NCBI GenBank assembly: GCA_945866505.1
Contig: CAMBHH010000094.1
Location: 1 to 13,254 of the forward strand
Direction of reading: 5' to 3'
Origin: Flavobacterium psychrophilum
GTDB taxonomy: Bacteria; Bacteroidota; Bacteroidia; Flavobacteriales; Flavobacteriaceae
DNA: 13,254 bases
Made by a program: the position numbers and the translations under genes. The stretch's first letter is position 1; every line of letters begins with the position of its first letter. A model generated the notes under the pieces. It worked only from the letters and a program-made list of their open reading frames with translations, was not told the DNA's origin and did no database searches. Of this stretch, positions 1,482-13,254 are shown piece after piece.

Positions 1482-1682
1482 GATAAATATTTTAGGATTT
1501 AAAAATGGTTGAGATCTGGACCAAATCAAAATACTTAACAATTGATTGAAAAAATATATTTAATACGGCAACTACATTGTTTTTAAACCTAAATGTTTTT
1601 TTAGATTCCTTGGATGTGGTGTTTTTTACTTGTTTAAAGAATCTAATACAATTAGAAATGTTGTTAAATGCAAATTTATAAC

Positions 1683-1950
1683 TTATTGCTCGAATGCCTC
1701 ATTCATTCTCCAATATCAATTGAGATTCAAGACTAAATCTAGGTCATCAATTTCGTTATTCTGAATTCCCACAATTCTGCTTCCTTTTTTACCTCCACAA
1801 ATAAAGTTAAGTTCTTATTCGGGATGAAAATGTATAGAGAAATCAATATCATCTTTACCCTTTTGCTCAACCAAAAAAACTATCTTCGCAGATCAGTCTC
1901 GTAATTTCCATGCGAGCATCATTATTCGTGACTAATTTTATATCTAATAA
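1683..1950 (-). pseudogene. decayed AraC-family regulator (cupin sensor fragment)
   Basis: On the minus strand this stretch has no intact gene but reads as a broken protein. The first frame (1950 to about 1873) gives VTNNDARMEITRLICEDSFF. A shift within a seven-base A run (1873-1879, plus strand) leads to VEQKGKDDIDFSIHFHPE, a TAA stop (1815-1817), ELNFICGGKKGSRIVG, DDLDLVLNLN, a TGA stop (1716-1718), then YWRMNEAFEQ and TAA (1683-1685). The order HFHPE, EL, G-RIVG, DLVL, NLPH-like, W-R-NE matches the N-terminal cupin sensor domain of Bacteroidetes AraC regulators that often control sugar loci. The C-terminal double helix-turn-helix is absent; nothing like it is seen in 1470-1682. By position it may once have regulated the susC operon. 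The identity rests on reading by eye. Confidence 0.55.
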
Positions 1951-2325: not shown

Positions 2326-5300
2326 ATGAAATTAACAAAAGTATTTATTTTTTGTTTTTTATCCGTTCTATTTTCAGTTTATGCGCAAGCACAAGATGTT
2401 TCGGTAAAAGGGAAAATAGTAGACGAAAACGGATTGCCCATTCCTGGAGCTTCCATTTTAATTAAGGGGACTACGAAAGCTACGTCTTCGGATATGGATG
2501 GAAATTTCCAATTAAAAGCCGATTCCAAAGGCACTTTAGTTTTTAGCTTCGTGGGGTACGGAACACTTCAAGAAGCTATAAAAGGTCGAACAACAATTAA
2601 TGTAAAACTAAGTCCAGAATCACAATCGCTACAAGAAGTAGTTGTTGTAGGATACGGTACTCAAAAGAAACGAGAGGTAACTGGAGCTGTATCGGTTGTA
2701 GACAGCAAGGCTTTAGATATTTTGAAGCCCATTCGAATTGAACAAGCCTTACAAGGTACTGTTTCTGGGGTTAATGTAACCACATCATCTGGATCTCCTG
2801 GCGCTGGACTGGATATAAGAATCAGGGGTATTGCTACTAACGGAGATGCTTCTCCACTTGTAATTATTGATGGTTACATCGGGGAGTTAGGTTTGTTAAA
2901 TCCCAATGATGTCGAGACTTTGACGGTATTAAAAGATGCCCAAGCCGCTATTTATGGTTCCGCTGCTGCCAATGGCGTTATTTTAGTAACGACGAGAACT
3001 GGTAAAAAAAACAGCAAAGGCAAGATTTCATTTAATACTTACACTGGATTTCAAGAAACCGCAAAAACTTTATCTACTTTAAACGCTACGCAATATGCCG
3101 CTTTACTGAATGAAAGTTATGCCAACGGAGGCAAAGCCTTACCTTATCCAATATTAAGTTCAAATCTAGGAAAAGGAACCGATTGGCAAAAAGAAGTATT
3201 CGGTTCAAGTGTACCTGTTATTAGTCACGATTTAACTTTTTCGGGAGGATCTGAGAAAATTTCTTATTCTGTAAGTGGTTCCCATTTGGATCAAGAAGGA
3301 ATTGTAGGTGGTGATAAATCTGGGTTTTTAAGAAATACTGCTAGAGTTTCCTTGAATGCAGATGTTTCGGATAGATTAAAATTAAAATCTAATGTGATTT
3401 ATACTTATTTCAACAGAAAAACTTTATTAGAAAACGGAAACGCATCCGTACTTTTAAATGCTGTTAATGCACCATCAGTTATTAAACCGTACGATGCTGA
3501 CGGTAACTATTCTTTGTTTCCAGGAGGAAATTTAGGAAACGAGATGATTAATCCCTTAGCACAAATTGACAATACCTACAACAATTATAATTTTAAACAA
3601 ATCAGCGGTAACTTCGGATTGGATTACAAATTATTTAAAGATTTTGTTATATCTAGTAATATGGGTTTTAAATCTGCAAACAGCGAAGGAAAATCGTTCT
3701 TACCAATTGTAGATTATGGCAGTGGAAAAGTTTTCAACATCAATAGAAGTTCTGTTTCTCAAAGTGCTGTAAATGATAATAATTATTCTTTTGACCTTTT
3801 TGGAACGTACACAAAAACTATTGCCGAAAATCATAAAATTACAGCTATGGTTGGAAACACTATCTTTAAAGAGTATGGCAACGGATTATTTGCTACTGGT
3901 TATGATGTGCCCAATAATTCTTGGGATTTTGCAGATATAGCATTAACGAAAGGTGCACCACCTGTGGGCATAAATCCAGCAGGATCTTACATTTATGACG
4001 AAAGAAGATTATCGTACTTTACAAGAGTTCAATATGATTACAAAGGAAAATATCTCTTGTCAGGAATGTATCGCCGTGATGCTTCCACCAAATTTGGCCC
4101 AAGTAACAAGGTGGGGTATTTTCCCTCAGTTACTGCGGGTTGGTTAATTTCTGACGAAGGCTTCTTTGGAGAATCAAAAATCATCAATTTTATGAAACTA
4201 AGAGGAAGTTATGGTATCGTTGGTAATGATAGAATACCAAACAATGGCTACATTTCACAGTTGACAGGCGAAGCGACCTATGTTTTCGACAACGCTTTAG
4301 TCAATGGAGTGGCAACAGGACAAATTCCTAATGAAAAACTAAAATGGGAACAAGCTGAGAAAATTGATGTAGGATTGGATATCAATTTATTAAATAATAA
4401 AATTAATATCGTAGCTGATTATTTTATAGATACAAGAAAAGATTTGTTAGTTCCTGGTATCCCCGTATCTGGTACTCTTGGTGGGGCAGCTCCGGGTGCT
4501 TCTAATCCAACAATTAATGCTGGAGAGGTAAGAAACGAGGGTTTTGAGTTTGCTATAAACTATAAAAATAAGTTTTCAGAAAACTTCAGTATGAGTTTAG
4601 GTTATAATGTAACGTTGCTAAAAAATAATGTTACTTACATAAACGGCACCGATTTTCTTGCAGGCGGTACATTTGGTATTGGTCAGCAAGCACCATCCAG
4701 AATGGCAGTGGGTCATTCAATAGGCTATTTTTATGGCTTAAAAACGGATGGGATTTTTCAAAATCAAGCCGAAGTTGATGCTCATCCATCACAATTGGAG
4801 GTTGGAGCAAATGCTTCTCCTGGAGATCTTCGATATGTTGATGTCAACGGAGATGGCAAAATTAGTTTTGATGATAGAACTGATATTGGCGATCCGATTC
4901 CGGAGGCGACAATGGGTTTCAACGTACAGTTAAACTACAAAGGGTTTGATTTTTCTATGTATTCCTTTGCTTCTGTCGGCAACAATATGGTTCGCAATTA
5001 TGAAAGCATTTCAGACGATGCGAATCGATTAACATATGTATTAGACAGATGGACTGGTGAAGGAACAAGCACTACTGTTCCTAAAGTTACCACCGCTGGA
5101 AACACCAATAGAGTATTTTCAGATTATTTTGTAGAAGATGCTTCCTATTTCAGAATACAAAGCGCGCAGCTAGGATATTCCATAAATCCTAATTATATTG
5201 AAAAATCAGGGGTGTCTAAAGTAAGATTGTATGTTGGTGTAAATAATTTGTACACTTTCACAAAATACAAAGGGTATGATCCAGGTGCTTCTAATGGTGC

Positions 5301-5379
5301 TCCTATTGGTGGCGGTATAGACGATGGTTTTTACCCTATACCAAGAACCTACTTACTAGGTTTAAACATTAATTTCTAA
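2326..5379 (+). CDS. susC: SusC/RagA-family TonB-linked outer-membrane transporter
   Basis: This 1017-residue protein imports glycan oligosaccharides across the outer membrane as the barrel partner of SusD. It has a signal peptide (cleavage likely after A22, in QAQDVS), then a carboxypeptidase-regulatory-like beta domain at about 25-98 (VKGKIVDENGLPIPGASI). The conserved QEVVVVGYGTQKK segment is at 103-115, and the plug domain ends near VILVTTRTGKK (218-228). The rest is a beta barrel ending in YLLGLNINF with the terminal aromatic residue typical of outer-membrane proteins. There is no N-terminal STN domain, so direct signalling to a FecR-type anti-sigma factor is not expected. Length is normal for the family. 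It is the first gene of the operon; susD starts 11 bases after its stop. The partner genes point to a beta-glucan substrate, which the sequence of SusC alone cannot prove. Confidence 0.97.
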   Translation: MKLTKVFIFCFLSVLFSVYAQAQDVSVKGKIVDENGLPIPGASILIKGTTKATSSDMDGNFQLKADSKGTLVFSFVGYGTLQEAIKGRTTINVKLSPESQSLQEVVVVGYGTQKKREVTGAVSVVDSKALDILKPIRIEQALQGTVSGVNVTTSSGSPGAGLDIRIRGIATNGDASPLVIIDGYIGELGLLNPNDVETLTVLKDAQAAIYGSAAANGVILVTTRTGKKNSKGKISFNTYTGFQETAKTLSTLNATQYAALLNESYANGGKALPYPILSSNLGKGTDWQKEVFGSSVPVISHDLTFSGGSEKISYSVSGSHLDQEGIVGGDKSGFLRNTARVSLNADVSDRLKLKSNVIYTYFNRKTLLENGNASVLLNAVNAPSVIKPYDADGNYSLFPGGNLGNEMINPLAQIDNTYNNYNFKQISGNFGLDYKLFKDFVISSNMGFKSANSEGKSFLPIVDYGSGKVFNINRSSVSQSAVNDNNYSFDLFGTYTKTIAENHKITAMVGNTIFKEYGNGLFATGYDVPNNSWDFADIALTKGAPPVGINPAGSYIYDERRLSYFTRVQYDYKGKYLLSGMYRRDASTKFGPSNKVGYFPSVTAGWLISDEGFFGESKIINFMKLRGSYGIVGNDRIPNNGYISQLTGEATYVFDNALVNGVATGQIPNEKLKWEQAEKIDVGLDINLLNNKINIVADYFIDTRKDLLVPGIPVSGTLGGAAPGASNPTINAGEVRNEGFEFAINYKNKFSENFSMSLGYNVTLLKNNVTYINGTDFLAGGTFGIGQQAPSRMAVGHSIGYFYGLKTDGIFQNQAEVDAHPSQLEVGANASPGDLRYVDVNGDGKISFDDRTDIGDPIPEATMGFNVQLNYKGFDFSMYSFASVGNNMVRNYESISDDANRLTYVLDRWTGEGTSTTVPKVTTAGNTNRVFSDYFVEDASYFRIQSAQLGYSINPNYIEKSGVSKVRLYVGVNNLYTFTKYKGYDPGASNGAPIGGGIDDGFYPIPRTYLLGLNINF

Positions 5380-5390
5380 AAATAAGAAAA

Positions 5391-6911
5391 ATGAAAAAGT
5401 ATATTTATATAGCAATAACAAGTTTAGTTTTCTTTTCAACGACTGTTATTTCTTGCAGTGATGAATTTGTTAACCGTCCAGTTCAATACTCTATTGACTC
5501 TGAGAATTATTTTAATTCCAAAACAGATTATGAAAATGCCTTACTAGGAGCTTATGATTTATTACATTCCTCCTTTATTAATGTATTGATGGGAGAAATT
5601 GCTTCTGACAATACCTTTGCAGGAGGAAATGGCCCGAATGATGTTCCGGGATACCAATCGGTAGATGACATGATTCATACGCCAGTAAATGCGCAAATTA
5701 AGCAATTGTGGGATTGGATGTTTGCGGGAGTTCAAAGATGCAATTACATCCTTGAATTTCAGGATAAAACTGATTTTGATGGCAAAAACCAAATCATCGC
5801 CCAAGCACGTTTTCTTAGAGCCTATTATCATTTTGAATTGGTAAAATGGTTTGGAGGAATTCCTATGAAAGGTGATAAGCGATTTGCACCAGGTGATGAA
5901 AAATCTATCCCACGATCTTCTGTAAGTGATGTCTATGCTTCAATCGAAGCCGACCTAATTTATGCTTCACAAAATCTTAGTGCTGTAACTCCACAAAAAG
6001 GGAGAGCAACCAGCGGAGCAGCATTGGCTTTGTTAGGAAAAGCGTACTTGTACCAAGGGAAATATGCGCAAGCTGCTTCTACCCTTGAAACTTTAATTTC
6101 TACTGGCAATTATCGTTTGGTAACTAGCGCAGATTTAACCACACAACAAATCACAGATGGTTTAACTCCTTTTGGAAGTATTTTTGAAGAAGCGGGAGAA
6201 AACGGTCCTGAATCCGTTTTTGAAGTACAGTATACCGATGTTGAAGGAGGAAATTATGGTCAACTACAATACCTTGAAGGTAATGTAGCAGTTGGTTTTG
6301 CAGGGCCTTTTGGTTATGAGGGTCCCGTATTTGCAGATGGAAACAATTTTAATCTTCCTACTCCAAAAATAGTGAGTGCTTTTACAACTGGCGACACTAG
6401 AAAGGATGTAACTATTTTGGATATGGCAACTTGGATTCCTGCTAATCCTGGAACCAAATATACTAAGCAACACGAAGATACCGGTTTTTTCAACAGAAAA
6501 TATATCCCGAGAAAAAGAAGACCAGAGGCTGCAGGAGATGTTAAATTAACTAGTCCTAATAATTACCGAGCCATTCGTTACGCTGACGTGCTATTGATGG
6601 CTGCAGAAGCTAATAATAAAAGTGGCAATGATGCTAAGGCGCAACAATATTTAAATCTTGTGAGAGACAGGGCTTTTGGTGATGTAAATCACAGAATTAC
6701 CGCCTCAGGAACTGGGCTATATGATTTTATTTTAGCAGAAAGACGAATAGAACTTGCAGGTGAAGGGCATCGTTTCTTCGATTTAGTAAGAACTGGTAAA
6801 GCAGCACAAGAAATTGATGGATTTGTAGCTGGAAAAAATGAATTATTCCCTATTCCTGTAGAAGAAATTCAATTCTCGGCAGGAAATTGGGCACAAAACC
6901 CTATGTATTAA
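5391..6911 (+). CDS. susD: SusD/RagB-family surface glycan-binding lipoprotein
   Basis: This 506-residue lipoprotein is the lid of the SusCD importer and binds glycan at the cell surface. The signal peptide ends in a lipobox with the lipidated cysteine at C22 (VISC), followed by the acidic SDE expected for surface export. The N-terminal SusD region (YFNSKTDYENALLGAYDLL) and the tetratricopeptide-type helices (IIAQARFLRAYYHFELVKWFGG) are clear. So is the conserved C-terminal RagB/SusD block: YRAIRYADVLLMAAEA, LAERRIELAGEGHRFFDLVR, and NELFPIPVEEI near the end. Length is normal. It starts 11 bases after susC and is followed 12 bases later by the next lipoprotein gene, so all are probably cotranscribed. 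The leader is A-rich without a Shine-Dalgarno site, normal for this phylum. Confidence 0.97.
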   Translation: MKKYIYIAITSLVFFSTTVISCSDEFVNRPVQYSIDSENYFNSKTDYENALLGAYDLLHSSFINVLMGEIASDNTFAGGNGPNDVPGYQSVDDMIHTPVNAQIKQLWDWMFAGVQRCNYILEFQDKTDFDGKNQIIAQARFLRAYYHFELVKWFGGIPMKGDKRFAPGDEKSIPRSSVSDVYASIEADLIYASQNLSAVTPQKGRATSGAALALLGKAYLYQGKYAQAASTLETLISTGNYRLVTSADLTTQQITDGLTPFGSIFEEAGENGPESVFEVQYTDVEGGNYGQLQYLEGNVAVGFAGPFGYEGPVFADGNNFNLPTPKIVSAFTTGDTRKDVTILDMATWIPANPGTKYTKQHEDTGFFNRKYIPRKRRPEAAGDVKLTSPNNYRAIRYADVLLMAAEANNKSGNDAKAQQYLNLVRDRAFGDVNHRITASGTGLYDFILAERRIELAGEGHRFFDLVRTGKAAQEIDGFVAGKNELFPIPVEEIQFSAGNWAQNPMY

Positions 6912-6923
6912 AAAAGTATAAAT

Positions 6924-8540
6924 ATGAAAAATATAAAATTTATTTTTGGTTTCGTATTCTTATTGGCTTTAGCCATAAGCTGTACGGTAGATGGTATAGA
7001 TGATGATACCTCTTTTATAGAAACAGTTGGCGCTCCATCTAATGTGGTTGCTTTTTATAATATTACTCAGGACAATTCAGGTCTGGTAACCATTACTCCA
7101 AATGGTGACGGTGCAGTATCTTATGAGGTTTATTATGGCGATAGTACAACAGCAGCACCTGCTAATGTGGTTCAAGGAAAAAACACTTCCCATATTTATA
7201 AAGAAGGAACCTATACCGTAAAAATTATCGCTATTGGAATTACAGGGTTAAAAACAGAAGCAACACAAAGTTTGGTCGTTTCTTTAAAAGCACCTGAAAA
7301 TTTAGTAGTGACCATTACGAATGACTTACTAGTCTCTAAAAAAGTAAATGTAACGGCAACTGCCAAGTATGCCACTATGTTTGATGTCTATTTTGGTGAA
7401 GCAGGAAGCACTGCTCCAGTTTCTGCCAATATTGGCGAAACAGCTTCTTACGTATATGCAAAAGCAGGCACTTATACTATAAAAGTAGTTTCTAAAAGTG
7501 CTGCCATAAAAACTACAGATTATACAGCTAGTTTTAATGTAACAGCTATTGTACAACCTGTTACATCGGCTCCAATTCCGCCAACTAGACAGGCAGCCAA
7601 TGTAATTTCTATATACGGTTCAAAATACACTAATGTTGTAGGGACAAATTACTTCCCAGATTGGGGACAAGGAGGTCAAGGAAGCAGTTGGGGTGAGTTT
7701 GACCTTAATGGTGATAAAATGTTAAACTACATTAAATTAAGCTATCAAGGAATTGCACTAGCCGACAATGTAACAGTCGATGTATCTGCAATGGAGTTTA
7801 TACACTTGGACGTTTGGACCGCTGACGCGCAAAAAATTGAGACCTCATTGATCAGTAAATCGAACGGCGAAAGACCTGTAGTGAAAGATCTTGTTGCCAA
7901 TGAATGGACAAGTATAGACATTCCCATTTCGGCATTTACCAGTCAAAATGGTTTTAAAGTGGCTGATATTTATCAATTGAAATTTGTTGGTACGCCTTGG
8001 GCTACAGGAACTGTTTATATAGACAATATCTATTTTTACAAAGCTGCTGCTCCATCAAGTGGTTTAGCTGGAACTTGGAAAATTGCCCCTGAAGCGGGTT
8101 CGTTAAAAGTAGGTCCCTCGTCTGGAAGTGGTGAGTGGTTTTCAATTAGTGCACAACAAGTAACTGAAAGAGCTTGTTTTTACGATGATACGTATGTTTT
8201 TTCTTCAAACGGATCTTTCAGTAATGTTTTGGGAACTGAAACTTGGATTGAAGCTTGGCAGGGTGTAGCAAAGGATGCGTGCGGAGCGCCAGTAGCTCCT
8301 CACAATGGACCTGCAGGAGCAACTTATCTGTACGATGCAGTTGCAAAAACTTTAACAATTACGGGTTCGGGATCTTATATAGGAATTCCAAAGGCTAATA
8401 ATGCTGGTGAGTTGCCTAAAACACCAGTACCTAGTTCAATCGTTTACAAAGTTACGCTCACAGACAATAATAATACTATGAATGCTGTTATCGAATCCGG
8501 TTCAGGTGTATTTTGGTCTTTTAAACTAGTGAGAATTTAA
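6924..8540 (+). CDS. multidomain PKD-containing lipoprotein, probable surface glycan-binding protein
   Basis: This 538-residue lipoprotein has its lipid cysteine at C20 (AISC), followed by an acidic stretch (DGIDDD) that fits surface export. Domains in order: two PKD-like immunoglobulin folds (about 38-120 and 121-207; typical ends HIYKEGTYTVKIIA and YVYAKAGTYTIKVVS); a beta-sandwich module resembling a carbohydrate-binding domain (about 220-373; YGSKYTNVVGTNYFPDWGQG, LDVWTADA, GTVYIDNIYFYK); and a C-terminal module (about 380-538) beginning GLAGTWKI and ending FWSFKLVRI. The last module recurs in the next gene. No catalytic residues are apparent. It occupies the SusE/SusF position but does not look like the starch-binding SusE/F proteins. 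From its place between susD and the GH16 gene I infer beta-glucan binding. Confidence 0.85.
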   Translation: MKNIKFIFGFVFLLALAISCTVDGIDDDTSFIETVGAPSNVVAFYNITQDNSGLVTITPNGDGAVSYEVYYGDSTTAAPANVVQGKNTSHIYKEGTYTVKIIAIGITGLKTEATQSLVVSLKAPENLVVTITNDLLVSKKVNVTATAKYATMFDVYFGEAGSTAPVSANIGETASYVYAKAGTYTIKVVSKSAAIKTTDYTASFNVTAIVQPVTSAPIPPTRQAANVISIYGSKYTNVVGTNYFPDWGQGGQGSSWGEFDLNGDKMLNYIKLSYQGIALADNVTVDVSAMEFIHLDVWTADAQKIETSLISKSNGERPVVKDLVANEWTSIDIPISAFTSQNGFKVADIYQLKFVGTPWATGTVYIDNIYFYKAAAPSSGLAGTWKIAPEAGSLKVGPSSGSGEWFSISAQQVTERACFYDDTYVFSSNGSFSNVLGTETWIEAWQGVAKDACGAPVAPHNGPAGATYLYDAVAKTLTITGSGSYIGIPKANNAGELPKTPVPSSIVYKVTLTDNNNTMNAVIESGSGVFWSFKLVRI

Positions 8541-8556: not shown

Positions 8557-9441
8557 ATGAAAACTATAAAATATTTTTTAACATTTCTAATCACGCTAAT
8601 TTTTTTTAGTAGTTGTGAAACAGAGAACTATCAATTTGGGGACATTGTAGCCCCGACCAACTTAACCGTAACACCAGAGATAGTGGGTAAAGATGCCACT
8701 CATCCTTTTGGAGATGGATCTGGAGTAGTAAAAATTACAGCGAAAGCTGATAGTGCTATTTCCTATAAATTTATTTACAATGGATCAGAAACTGTAAAGT
8801 CAGGCGGACAGCTAACGTATAATTTCGGAAATACAGGTACTAATAAATATACAATCACAGTAGTAGCAAGCGGAAAAGGTGGAATAACTTCTAGTACGAC
8901 GATTGAAATTGAGGTTTTAGTGGTATATGTGCCACCAGCAGAATTGGTAACAATTTTAACTGGCAATAGTTCAAGAACTTGGAGGATAAAAGCTGAGGGG
9001 AATGGTCATTTTGGATTAGGTCCTGTAGGTGGTTCTATTCCTACTGAATGGTACGGAGCTCCGGCTAATGCTAAATCCAATTCAGGTATGTATGATGACC
9101 GTTTTACTTTCAAGAAAGACCTAGGCTTCACACATAATACAGGGGCAGACGGAAATGTTTTTGGACGTAAAGTGTTAATTGAACAACTAAACGGACCGGG
9201 AGGAGTTCCGGAAGGAGATGATATTATTCAATATCCTTTTGCTAGTTATTCTGGGCAGTATACACTTTCAGCCCCAAATGGTGTAGAAACTATTTCTCTT
9301 TCTAGCACTTCTTTTATAGGTTATTACACAGGCGGGAATCATCAGTATAGAATCTTTAAAAGAGAAGCAAACGAAATGATTTTAAGTACAGTCGATGGTA
9401 ATAATGGATTTGAATGGTGGTTTATTATAGTGCCTGAATAA
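8557..9441 (+). CDS. PKD-containing lipoprotein, probable second surface glycan-binding protein
   Basis: This 294-residue lipoprotein has C20 as the lipidated residue (FSSC), followed by ETENYQFGD. A PKD-like domain at about 30-125 (LTVTPEIVGKD, GDGSGVVKITA) is strikingly similar to the one in the downstream GH16 enzyme. The C-terminal module at about 133-294 begins SRTWRIKAEGNGHFGLGP and ends GFEWWFIIVPE. It resembles the last module of the preceding lipoprotein: both start with (R/G)TW(R/K)I, share a later YDD.(F/Y).F segment, and end in aromatic strands. No hydrolase motif is seen. It begins 16 bases after the previous gene and is the last gene before a strong terminator. Glycan binding is inferred from architecture and position. 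Confidence 0.8.
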   Translation: MKTIKYFLTFLITLIFFSSCETENYQFGDIVAPTNLTVTPEIVGKDATHPFGDGSGVVKITAKADSAISYKFIYNGSETVKSGGQLTYNFGNTGTNKYTITVVASGKGGITSSTTIEIEVLVVYVPPAELVTILTGNSSRTWRIKAEGNGHFGLGPVGGSIPTEWYGAPANAKSNSGMYDDRFTFKKDLGFTHNTGADGNVFGRKVLIEQLNGPGGVPEGDDIIQYPFASYSGQYTLSAPNGVETISLSSTSFIGYYTGGNHQYRIFKREANEMILSTVDGNNGFEWWFIIVPE

Positions 9442-9519: not shown

Positions 9520-10593
9520 ATGCAAAATTCAATCTTAAAGAATTTAAAACCACTTATCGTTCTAGTAGCTTTAATATCAATAATTTCATTAAGCTGTTCC
9601 GGCGGAGATTCAACTACTGTAGTAGATCCCACCCCATCTAATCTTGTAATCACGGCTGAAATAATTGGGAAAAGCGTAGAAAAACCAAATGGAGACGGAA
9701 GTGGTATCGTTAAATTTAATATCACCGCAACAAATGCAACCTCATATAAAATTTCATTTGGAGATGGGACCTTACAAAATGCTACAAATGGGATAAATTC
9801 TTATACCTACAAAATAGCAGGGACTTACAGTTATGTCGTCACTGTCACGGCCTATAATGGATCAAAATCAATTAGCTCGTCGGTAAATGTGACCGTAAAT
9901 GTTACATCAGCACCTGTGTGGGCAGACGAATTTAACACAAATGGTGCACCAAGTTCATCAAATTGGGGTTATGATTTAGGTGCTGGTGGTTGGGGGAATA
10001 ATGAGTCTCAAAATTATACTAATCGGTCAGATAATGTTAAAGTAGAGAACGGTGTTTTAAAAATAACTTTAAAAAAAGAAAGTTATCAAGGAAGCAACTA
10101 TACTTCTGCTCGTCTTTTGTCTAAAGGGAAATTTTCTATAAAATATGGAAAAGTAGAATTTAGAGCAAAACTTCCCGTTGGTGGTGGAACTTGGCCAGCA
10201 CTCTGGATGTTAGGTGATAATATTAGCACTGCAGGATGGCCTGCTTGCGGCGAAATTGATATTATGGAGCACGTAGGCAATGATTTAAATAAAATACACG
10301 GAACACTGCATTATTCAGGACGTTCCGGTGGGAATGCTGATACTACAAGCAAAGTTATATCGAATGCTACAACGGAATTTCATATATATACAATCGACTG
10401 GAGAGCCGATTCTATAAAATTTTATATTGATAATCAATTGTTTAAAAATTTTACTAATACATCAAGTTTGCCCTTTAATCAGAAATTTTTCTTGATTATG
10501 AATTGTGCTATTGGAGGAAATTTTGGAGGAGCAATTGACCCAAATTTTGTCTCTTCTACTTTCGAAGTCGATTATGTAAGGGTTTATAATTAA
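9520..10593 (+). CDS. GH16 family beta-glucanase lipoprotein (probable endo-beta-1,3-glucanase)
   Basis: This 357-residue lipoprotein would hydrolyse internal beta-1,3-glucan bonds, as laminarinases do. The lipobox cysteine is C26 (LSLSC), followed by SGGDS. A PKD-like domain (about 40-126) precedes the GH16 domain (about 133-357), which opens with PVWADEFN. The catalytic motif is E245-I-D247-I-M-E250-H, with E245 as nucleophile, D247 assisting and E250 as acid/base. The extra M gives the beta-bulge form typical of laminarinases and not the lichenase form EIDIEF. Other family marks are GGWGNNESQNYT, GKVEFRAKLP, TWPALWMLG and the final FEVDYVRVYN. The gene lies after a terminator, and no clear promoter is seen in the 30 bases before its ATG, so it may depend on read-through. 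Surface display is inferred. Other GH16 substrates (agar, carrageenan) fit the neighbours less well. Confidence 0.92.
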   Translation: MQNSILKNLKPLIVLVALISIISLSCSGGDSTTVVDPTPSNLVITAEIIGKSVEKPNGDGSGIVKFNITATNATSYKISFGDGTLQNATNGINSYTYKIAGTYSYVVTVTAYNGSKSISSSVNVTVNVTSAPVWADEFNTNGAPSSSNWGYDLGAGGWGNNESQNYTNRSDNVKVENGVLKITLKKESYQGSNYTSARLLSKGKFSIKYGKVEFRAKLPVGGGTWPALWMLGDNISTAGWPACGEIDIMEHVGNDLNKIHGTLHYSGRSGGNADTTSKVISNATTEFHIYTIDWRADSIKFYIDNQLFKNFTNTSSLPFNQKFFLIMNCAIGGNFGGAIDPNFVSSTFEVDYVRVYN

Positions 10594-10645: not shown

Positions 10646-10718
10646 GAATAATGAAAACAATCATATTTACAATCAACAATTGCTTACTATTTTTTTGAAT
10701 CGCTCTTACGTTATTCTA

Positions 10719-11549
10719 ATGAAACATTTATTGACTGTCATGATTTTATTTTTCCTCTTTGTGGGGAATGCGCAATCATTAAAATTAATGACCTATAACA
10801 TCCGCTTAGATGTTGAAAGTGACGGCGAAAACAAATGGTCTAATCGGAAAGATTTTCTTACCTCACAACTACAGTTTTACGAACCCGATATTTTTGGCGT
10901 TCAAGAAGCGAAACCCAATCAAGTAATTGAAATTGCAACGGTACTCTCTCAATATAATTTTATTGGCATTGGGAGAGATGGTGCAGGTCAGGGCGAATCT
11001 TCGAATATTTATTTTAAAAAAGACCGTTTTAAAATACTGAAAAGCAGTACTTTTTGGCTTTCCGAAACTCCAGATGTTGTTTCAAAAGGTTGGGATGCTG
11101 CTTGCAATAGAGTCTGCACCTATGCTTTATTCAAAGATTTGGAAACAAAAAAGACCTTCTGGGTTTTCAATACACATTTAGACCATATTGGAGAATTAGC
11201 CAAAACAAATGGCATTCTACTCATTCTTTCGAAAATCACAGCGTTAAACATTAATAAGGATTCGGTGTTTTTTATGGGTGATTTTAATTCCAAACCCAAT
11301 GATGAACGAATTATCTCCCTAAAAAAAGTGATGAATGATACTCGAGATATTTCTGAATCAAAGCCTTTTGGACCGTCGGGAACTTTCAATGGTTTTAAAC
11401 ATAATGAACCTGTTACTGAATTGATTGATTATATTTTTATTTCAAAAAAAAGCAACTTCAAGGTCAAGAAATATGCCGTCTTAAGCGATTCAAAAGAGTT
11501 GAAATATCCATCTGATCATTTACCAGTATACATAGAAATGAGTTATTAA
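10719..11549 (+). CDS. secreted endonuclease/exonuclease/phosphatase (EEP) family protein
   Basis: This 276-residue protein has a metal-dependent phosphoesterase fold. I choose the ATG at 10719 because it begins a proper signal peptide (MKHLLTVMILFFLF, cleavage likely after A18 in GNAQS). The frame is open further upstream to 10599, but that stretch is not protein-like. All family motifs are present: MTYNIR (N27), GVQEA (E63), NTHLDH (H153, D155), GDFNSKPND (D188, N190), IDYIF (D237) and SDHLPV (D266, H267). It should therefore be active. The family includes DNases, inositol-phosphate phosphatases and sphingomyelinases; the substrate cannot be read from the sequence. EEP proteins of this kind do occur in Bacteroidota glycan loci with unknown role. 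It lies 125 bases after GH16 and 34 bases before a GH30 relic. Confidence 0.88.
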   Translation: MKHLLTVMILFFLFVGNAQSLKLMTYNIRLDVESDGENKWSNRKDFLTSQLQFYEPDIFGVQEAKPNQVIEIATVLSQYNFIGIGRDGAGQGESSNIYFKKDRFKILKSSTFWLSETPDVVSKGWDAACNRVCTYALFKDLETKKTFWVFNTHLDHIGELAKTNGILLILSKITALNINKDSVFFMGDFNSKPNDERIISLKKVMNDTRDISESKPFGPSGTFNGFKHNEPVTELIDYIFISKKSNFKVKKYAVLSDSKELKYPSDHLPVYIEMSY

Positions 11550-11583
11550 CAGAACAAAAAAGATTACCAAAGTAAAAATATTG

Positions 11584-11963
11584 ATGAAATATTTTCTTTG
11601 ATCGACAATCATTAGTCTTGTCTCGAATTGCTCTTCATATGGGTAAACAACAACAAAAATAATTCCACCTGCATTGGCAACAATTGAAGTGGGTTTTTGG
11701 TTGACAAAAGGATATCAATCGCTATTGCTCATAAAACAGATATTGTTCCAAGCGTTAATTGGCCCTAGCGAAAATTCATTTAGCATAAGTTATTTGCTTT
11801 TCAACATTGGAACTTCGAATCTAAACTCGGCTGAATTTTCTTATGATAATAGATCATTGGTGCAACCTGATGTAAATACAAATGAAATATTCAACATTAA
11901 AAAGAATGGGCGATGATTTATTACTACATTAGCAAGTGGCTGGTTGGAATCTATGTGTTTTAG
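11584..11963 (+). pseudogene. GH30 glycosidase relic with internal deletion
   Basis: The remains of a secreted GH30 enzyme are visible in one frame from ATG 11584: a lipoprotein signal peptide (MKYFL, TGA stop at 11599-11601, STIISLVSNCSS), a TAA stop at 11644-11646, then PALATIEVGFWLTKGYQS. Next comes the GH30 block ISYLLFNIGTSNLNSAEFSY, followed by DN and later TNEIFNI. This matches the pattern ATIEVD..GFGFTLTGGSA...GISYLR.SIGASDL...VFSYDDLP of GH30 endo-beta-1,6-glucanase-like proteins. After TGA 11914-11916 come FITTLASG and, shifted by one base, LVGIYVF and stop (11961-11963), like the end of the GH30 C-terminal beta domain. Both catalytic glutamates and roughly 350 residues are missing. 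It differs from the intact GH30 downstream (IRTNIHSCDFSSDMYTY), so it is not a simple recent duplicate. The family call is firm; the subfamily is inference. Confidence 0.75.
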
Positions 11964-12049
11964 AAAACAACTACCACTCTGAATAAGGTTTAAATCAAAT
12001 TTCAGCAACGAATATTTCGAAAAAAATAAGGATAACTATCAAATAAATT

Positions 12050-13254
12050 ATGAAGACAACAATCTCGGCACTAATTTTACTGATTGCATGTAGCGCATTT
12101 TCGCAGCAAAAAAACAAAATTCCATCTAAACCATTTTCTGTGATTGGCAAAACTGTAATGGTTTACACCTCAGCGGACAGCACCAATCTAAGATTAACAA
12201 ATACTGATAATTTGAAATTTTCAGTTTTAAAACAACCCTTCGAAACTCAAACTTGTGTGTTTGTAGATCCTAACAAAACCTTTCAGACTTTTCTGGGAAT
12301 TGGTGGTGCCATTACTGATGCAAGCGCCGAAGTTTTTGCAAAATTACCACAAAACAAACAACAAGAATTAGTGAACGCTTATTTTAGTAAAGACAAAGGA
12401 ATTGGTTATTCACTCATTCGAACCAACATCCACAGTTGCGATTTTAGCAGCGATATGTACACTTATGTCACAGAAGGTGATGCCGATTTAAAGACTTTTT
12501 CTATAGAACACGATAAAAAATTTAAAATTCCTTTGATCAAAAAAGCAACAGAAACTGCTGGTGGAAAAATAACATTATATGCCAGTCCTTGGAGTCCGCC
12601 TGCGTTTATGAAAGACAATAATAACATGCTAAAAGGGGGGAAATTATTGCCCGAATTTTATCAATCGTGGGCCAATTATTATGCGAAATTCATTAATAGC
12701 TATCAAAAAGAAGGAATTCCCGTTTGGGGAATTACGGTGCAAAACGAGCCAATGGCCAAACAATCTTGGGAATCCTGCATTTATACCGCCGAAGAAGAAC
12801 GTGATTTTTTAAAAAATTATCTTGGCCCTACATTATCCAAAGCTGGACTTGGTGATAAAAAAATTACAGTTTGGGATCACAATAGAGATTTGATGACTCA
12901 AAGAGCAACTACCATTCTCGACGATCCCGAAGCCAATAAATATGTTTGGGGAGTTGGTTTTCATTGGTATGAAACGTGGACAGGTGGAGCGCCAATGTTT
13001 GAAAATGTGGGTGCTGTCAAAGAATTGTATCCCAACAAAAATTTACTTTTTACTGAAGGTTGTAACGAAAAATTCGATCCTACAAAATACCAACTTTGGA
13101 CAAATGGTGAGCGTTACGGTAAATCTATGATCAATGATTTCAATAACGGAACCGTTGGTTGGACAGATTGGAATATCCTTTTAGATGAAAAAGGTGGTCC
13201 AAATCATGTGGGCAATTATTGCTTTGCTCCTATTCACGCTGACACCAAAACTGG
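12050..13254 (+). CDS. GH30 family glycoside hydrolase (glucosylceramidase-like), 3' end outside window
   Basis: The frame from ATG 12050 is open to the right edge (401 codons). The N-terminus is hydrophobic with LIAC at 11-14, which could be a lipobox; cleavage after AFS at 18 is the alternative. The GH30 TIM barrel shows GIGGAITDASAEVF, GIGYSLIRTNIHSCDFS, ASPWSPPAFMK and TVQNEP with acid/base E233. Further on are WGVGFHWYETW and LLFTEGC with nucleophile E336, then VGWTDWNILLDEKGGPNH. Both catalytic residues are present. About 80-100 residues, mainly the C-terminal beta domain, should lie beyond the edge. It resembles the GH30 subgroup containing glucocerebrosidase and bacterial beta-1,6-glucan-active or beta-glucosidase enzymes. 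With GH16 upstream, removal of beta-1,6-linked glucose from a laminarin-like glucan is likely. No clear promoter lies between the relic and this gene. Confidence 0.93.
   Translation, partial: MKTTISALILLIACSAFSQQKNKIPSKPFSVIGKTVMVYTSADSTNLRLTNTDNLKFSVLKQPFETQTCVFVDPNKTFQTFLGIGGAITDASAEVFAKLPQNKQQELVNAYFSKDKGIGYSLIRTNIHSCDFSSDMYTYVTEGDADLKTFSIEHDKKFKIPLIKKATETAGGKITLYASPWSPPAFMKDNNNMLKGGKLLPEFYQSWANYYAKFINSYQKEGIPVWGITVQNEPMAKQSWESCIYTAEEERDFLKNYLGPTLSKAGLGDKKITVWDHNRDLMTQRATTILDDPEANKYVWGVGFHWYETWTGGAPMFENVGAVKELYPNKNLLFTEGCNEKFDPTKYQLWTNGERYGKSMINDFNNGTVGWTDWNILLDEKGGPNHVGNYCFAPIHADTKT

Follow-up and report, generated by a model that had tools for sequence, protein, structure and literature searches.

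Glycan-use loci of the Bacteroidota are usually compared by the presence or absence of their genes. The described systems closest to the locus considered here are BT3312 of Bacteroides thetaiotaomicron, given in the available text of its description as a GH30_3 endo-beta-1,6-glucanase with the catalytic glutamates 238 and 339 (PMC5481569; PDB 5ngk), and FbGH30 (PMC6246565), described as an exo-beta-1,6-glucosidase encoded in a laminarin locus of Formosa. The window, by which we mean the whole 13,254-nucleotide stretch of Flavobacterium psychrophilum DNA that was analyzed, is a SusC/SusD-type glycan locus (Table 1), and the combination of a SusC/SusD pair with GH16 and GH30/GH3 enzymes, as recognized by Pfam, is that expected of a laminarin or beta-glucan polysaccharide utilization locus, so that the window looks laminarin-type with a putative substrate. 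A tRNA gene (Rfam RF00005) is located close to the left border of the locus, at 384-457 on the minus strand. Between the EEP gene and the GH30_1-type gene, both of which are long open frames in the ORF list, there is a gap of 500 bp without a normal gene, and this gap holds what is almost certainly a functionless pseudogene that is decaying neutrally. It would derive from a gene for a surface-lipoprotein GH30_3-type glucanase that once stood complete between EEP and GH30_1.

Table 1. Coordinates of intact genes, gene remnants and lesions in the window
Feature	Position	Strand	Evidence
AraC-type regulator pseudogene beside SusC, with an internal deletion of ~0.5 kb and frame breaks	about 1570-1930	-	
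SusC gene of the window glycan locus	2326-5379		
SusD gene of the window glycan locus	5391-6911		
Lipoprotein-like gene 1	6924-8540		
Lipoprotein-like gene 2	8557-9441		
GH16 gene	9520-10593		
EEP (endonuclease/exonuclease/phosphatase-type) gene, intact left neighbor of the remnant	about 10716..11549	+	Pfam PF03372
GH30_3-type pseudogene, original start codon to original last codon plus TAG	11584..11963	+	alignment with eight intact relatives; blastx versus shuffles
Lesion 1, in-frame TGA in the lipoprotein-type signal peptide	11599..11601	+	sequence and alignment
Lesion 2, in-frame TAA in the linker	11644..11646	+	sequence and alignment
Junction of deletion 1, 153 bp (51 codons) gone	11730..11731	+	alignment
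Junction of deletion 2, 894 bp (298 codons) gone	11868..11878	+	alignment
Lesion 3, TGG-to-TGA nonsense change (W to stop versus intact copies)	11914..11916	+	alignment
Frameshift by loss of 1 bp ahead of the VGIYVF end	11941..11942	+	alignment
GH3 gene remnant, 64 bp from the 3' end, stop TAA at 12044-12046	11983..12046	+	blast scores versus shuffles; alignment
GH30_1-type gene, glucosylceramidase-related, intact up to the window end	12050..13254	+	Pfam PF02055

The ATG at 11584 opens a lipoprotein-like start and the closing TAG is at 11961-11963. The GFWLTKGYQS motif and ISYLLFNIGTSNLNSAEFSY share one frame with this ATG and lie downstream of the TAA at 11644, and TTLASG, which follows the TGA at 11914, is split from the VGIYVF that comes after it by the 1-bp loss near 11941. 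A sequence-only reading of this DNA had described these motifs together with the signal peptide and its stop and the one-base shift, all of which are present in the sequence, and its proposal of a dead GH30 gene that kept both ends, lost about 1 kb internally and gathered point mutations is borne out by a start-to-end alignment with eight intact relatives. The single internal deletion that it assumed is resolved by the alignment into two, one of 153 bp relative to all eight intact relatives and one of 894 bp relative to seven of the eight (888 bp relative to locus L007); both are multiples of three, and together they amount to 1047 bp, or 349 codons. That reading included neither this split nor the GH3 tail just after the remnant nor the dead AraC-type regulator. 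Set against intact orthologues in the same slot, three stops, one frameshift and two deletions mark the stretch as a pseudogene, and because the positions of both catalytic glutamates of BT3312, Glu238 and Glu339, fall inside the 894-bp deletion in a residue-by-residue alignment, the remnant cannot act as a GH30 enzyme. The open stretch that is left comprises 80 codons (11674-11916) and starts with a TTG after the stop inside the old linker.

Imperfect direct repeats flank both deletions, as read by eye from the eight-relative alignment: for deletion 1 they have the sequence TCAAAAA[A/G]CA[A/G], with copies 153 bp apart in L113, and for deletion 2 they are of the type GAYG[T/G]RAAY. It is likely that both deletions arose by slippage or recombination between such short direct repeats at their ends. 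With random lengths the chance that both would be in frame is about 1 in 9, and the in-frame outcome may be explained by the repeats sharing the codon frame.

The remnant is missed by standard profile searches and is found by same-place comparison with relatives. When the 80-82 aa open piece was used alone, no GH30 family was matched in Pfam at E up to 0.001 or up to 10, nothing was matched in NCBIfam up to E 10, and no GH30 was matched among PDB sequences up to E 10, where four chance matches were returned (best E 0.35); a single Pfam match to Med24_N at E 0.16 was also taken as chance. The sequence-only reading had held that the lack of a GH30 hit would speak against it, and a lack of hits is indeed what Pfam, NCBIfam and PDB gave, whereas real relatives are matched clearly. 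The relatives are the best 80 loci found with the intact GH30 protein of the window in one-genome-per-species contigs, and a tblastn search of these fetched loci with the 82-aa piece matched the GH30_3-type genes, the best being that of F. soyangense at E 6.5e-11. In blastx, the interval 11550-11965 scored 75.5 bits against 54 intact GH30_3-type proteins, which were taken from the 80 loci and seven further genome stretches, compared with a maximum of 28.5 bits for 500 dinucleotide-preserving shuffles. Against database proteins, among the best 120 of 8000 candidates scored with an intact relative as query, the best score of the remnant was 90.5 bits. Taken alone, the C-terminal piece has no significant blastx match (best 23.5 bits, E 0.52), and it was placed by collinear DNA alignment and by blastn matches, for example over 89 bp of L005 and 34 bp of L035.

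In 20 of the 80 loci, the 6 kb upstream of the GH30 gene that served as anchor include an EEP gene, and in 19 of these loci a GH30_3-type gene stands between EEP and GH30_1, open in every case and encoding 477-589 aa; in the remaining one, from F. franklandianum (L001), the slot is filled by an intact GH3 gene. An intact GH30_3-like gene between the EEP and GH30 genes of relatives is what the sequence-only reading had proposed to look for, and 19 of the 20 loci provide it. Its suggestion that the role of the fossil was handed to the neighboring GH30 is not supported, since those 19 loci keep both genes and the neighbor is therefore not a replacement. Further genes are inserted between GH30_3 and GH30_1 in L113 and L004, two more in the case of L004. 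In two other loci, L018 (8209-8506) and L102 (1067-1358), the EEP match consists of the C-terminal part only or of overlapping pieces, and EEP may be decaying there. Loci L002 and L013 are from MAG contigs titled Klebsiella pneumoniae and Bifidobacterium breve that carry a Flavobacterium-type GH30 (85% and 73% identity to the window GH30), and they are probably mislabeled or contaminated bins.

The lost gene most likely encoded a surface endo-beta-1,6-glucanase-like enzyme. The best PDB match for the intact orthologues is 5ngk/BT3312, at E 2.2e-83 for L005 (next 1.7e-42) and 4e-84 for L113 (next 6e-49), and the GH30_3 assignment, made by best hit, is that of these two orthologues and not of the remnant itself. 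The L001 relative of the neighboring GH30 has its best matches in 2wnw and human glucosylceramidase, which upholds the earlier view that places the fossil closer than its neighbor to the beta-1,6-glucanase branch. With the NCBIfam endo-1,6-beta-glucanase equivalog model, which has a cut-off of 700, three intact orthologues reach only 344-375 bits, and for this reason the activity and substrate of the lost gene are given here as putative.

The remaining codons of the remnant show neutral-like change and relaxed constraint. Of 265 core columns, 129 are invariant in the eight intact relatives, and the remnant differs at 21 of them, 20 of these differences being at codon positions 1 and 2, compared with 0-8 differences for the intact copies in the same leave-one-out count. 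Amino acid identity of the remnant to the relatives is 49-56%, versus 68-82% for the L113, L114, L005, and L004 rows against other intact copies. The seven remaining genes give dN/dS values of 0.05-0.11, obtained by comparison with L112 for SusC, SusD, the two lipoproteins and GH16 and with F. franklandianum (L001) for EEP (0.10) and GH30_1 (0.05); for GH16 versus L113 the ratio is not computable because dS is saturated. These values indicate purifying selection on the remaining genes and a locus that, in evolutionary terms, is still working.

The substitution pattern also bears on whether a functional role, for example that of a spacer, leader or small protein, has preserved the leftover as the 80-codon ORF or as its RNA, which we consider highly improbable. 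Such retention would be consistent with two in-frame deletions that left an 80-codon frame open, but codon positions 1 and 2 have changed freely, and the ORF begins with its TTG after a stop in the old linker. A conserved short protein was rejected, as a word-based search of ~5.8 billion proteins, which needs shared 5-residue words, returned one candidate and no homologue at E up to 1. Rfam at gathering thresholds has no family at the remnant, and an RNA element there was rejected, the only Rfam match being the distant tRNA. A scan of 11500-12100 detected no terminator (shuffle mean 0.1) and one promoter-like site, compared with a shuffle mean of 3.4.

There is equally the question of whether the GH30_3 gene is in fact intact and the lesions were introduced by assembly or base calling. 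The DNA may come from a metagenome, and no second copy of the exact locus was found, the same fossil being seen in none of 398 Flavobacterium-genus genomes (a subset of a larger group, with two candidates scored per genome, so that copies can be missed). However, 21 changes in a neutral pattern, three stops, a frameshift and an adjoining GH3 remnant are unlike a collapse or a chimera, and the neighboring genes read as long open frames, so that an artefact is scarcely credible as the source of the remnant.

The adjoining GH3 remnant is a second fossil, recognized by its scores against GH3 genes of L111 (genome G117; 61.7 bits, 46 bp), L112 (G225; 56.3 bits, 65 columns), L001 (F. franklandianum; 51.8 bits, 65 columns), L128 (49.1 bits, 41 bp, 88%), L129 (49.1 bits) and L127 (42.8 bits), compared with a maximum of 37.4 bits in 1000 shuffles. 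Its stop is kept in the window three bases before the start of the GH30 gene, as in L111. A GH3 gene that once followed GH30_3 would thus have been removed down to its last 64 bp. GH3 of this type (at least 86% identity; next 61%) is present in six of the same 398 Flavobacterium-genus genomes. The possibility that the GH3-like end in F. franklandianum is a read-through into the spacer was dropped, and the end is taken as true because the GH3 ends of five other genomes are alike. In the fetched stretch, GH30_3 is absent beside GH3 in five of the six genomes with this GH3 type, and the contig of the sixth (L112) starts with GH3, so that its upstream side is unseen. A GH30_3-type gene is located elsewhere in four of the six (G001, G208, G117, and G004), and none was found in the other two (G225 and G144).

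Our preferred reading is that the ancestral order was EEP-GH30_3-GH3-GH30_1, as the succession of the two fossils suggests. None of the six genomes found to carry this GH3 type has this order intact, one of them being cut by a contig end. L001 and L127 would have lost GH30_3, and the window would have lost nearly all of GH3 in addition to the erosion of its GH30_3. Because GH3 is followed in L127 by a gene other than GH30_1, the right end of the proposed order rests on L001 and the window. In trees built from 31 selected loci, the window groups in the EEP tree (20 rows, few well-supported forks) with L001 and L127 (95/90), both of which are loci where this GH3 follows EEP, and in the GH30_1 tree (37 rows, including six GH30_3 rows that form their own group) with L001 (100/98).

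A different history, which we regard as possible though somewhat doubtful, is that the locus is a recombinant. In that case a donor resembling F. franklandianum would have supplied a GH3-GH30_1 segment, and EEP and a dying GH30_3, both from one lineage, would have been fused to it at a breakpoint within the GH3 tail; what is at issue is the joining of the two fossils and not their fossil status. DNA identity between the window and L001 rises from 73% in GH16 and EEP to 87% in GH30_1, the latter being 92% identical at the amino acid level, and dS falls from 1.20 for EEP to 0.77 for GH30_1. A slow gene does not explain this jump, because GH30_1 is not clearly slower than EEP elsewhere, with dN of 0.126 versus 0.142 in comparison with L005 and of 0.177 (over 173 codons only) versus 0.158 in comparison with L113. 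It also speaks for a recombinant that this GH3 type precedes GH30_1 in L001, L111, and L128. Nevertheless, the EEP and GH30_1 trees both put L001 among the nearest kin of the window, so that vertical descent with losses suffices, and the ancestral four-gene order remains the reading that we favor.

The third fossil, the AraC-type regulator beside SusC, has an intact counterpart of 290 aa at the same place in L112 (genome G225), the locus that, of those compared, is most closely related to the window in the SusC-GH16 part (83% DNA identity over 8.4 kb). In L112 a transposase gene (DUF4372 and DDE; 12591-13763 of that locus) follows GH16, where the EEP and GH30 genes would stand, and a truncated DUF58 gene (2271-2831) abuts the GH3 gene on its other side; L112 is a different rearrangement of the same region. 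No EEP and no close GH30_3 (best match 34%) were found in genome G225, which may be incomplete.

The locus combines three dead genes (the AraC-type regulator, GH30_3 and the GH3 tail) with seven strongly constrained ones, the order kept by its two enzyme fossils was seen intact in none of the six genomes with this GH3 type, and related lineages would have lost different parts of the block. We give roughly even chances to the explanation that this represents a stepwise pruning of side-chain-cutting and regulatory functions with the core kept, and not a wholesale decay, in which case the losses would have occurred while SusC, SusD, the two lipoproteins, GH16, EEP, and GH30_1 stayed in use. The pseudogene is real and of an ordinary kind with an unusually complete record, and the set of three fossils is its most interesting part. 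Among the papers that searches on pseudogenes in polysaccharide utilization loci turned up, none deals with such a case, judged from titles and the openings of abstracts. Erosion that can be read base by base indicates which enzymes were dispensable, the probable mechanism of deletion, and a gene order that perhaps survives only as fossils.

The nearest comparators for the remnant are the intact Flavobacterium GH30_3 genes of F. soyangense (L004), F. cellulosilyticum (L005), G232 (L113), and G049 (L114), which have the same slot after EEP and the same start and end. They share with the remnant the N-terminal motifs of the WLTKGDQS and ISYLRxSIxASDLN types, the C-terminal motif of the FNIKYNGRW type and the VGTY end, but the window remnant, unlike these copies, has 349 codons deleted as well as stops and a frameshift. 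BT3312, according to the available text of its description, is likewise a lipoprotein encoded in a SusCD locus with a GH3, as here (PMC5481569), though with equivalog scores below the cut-off it is not certain that the intact orthologues have the same activity. The window locus differs from the BT3312 locus in also containing GH16, and it looks laminarin-type. In this respect it can be compared with the FbGH30 system, in which a GH30 belonging to a cluster of several enzymes is reported to act on laminarin at its beta-1,6 side chains (PMC6246565).
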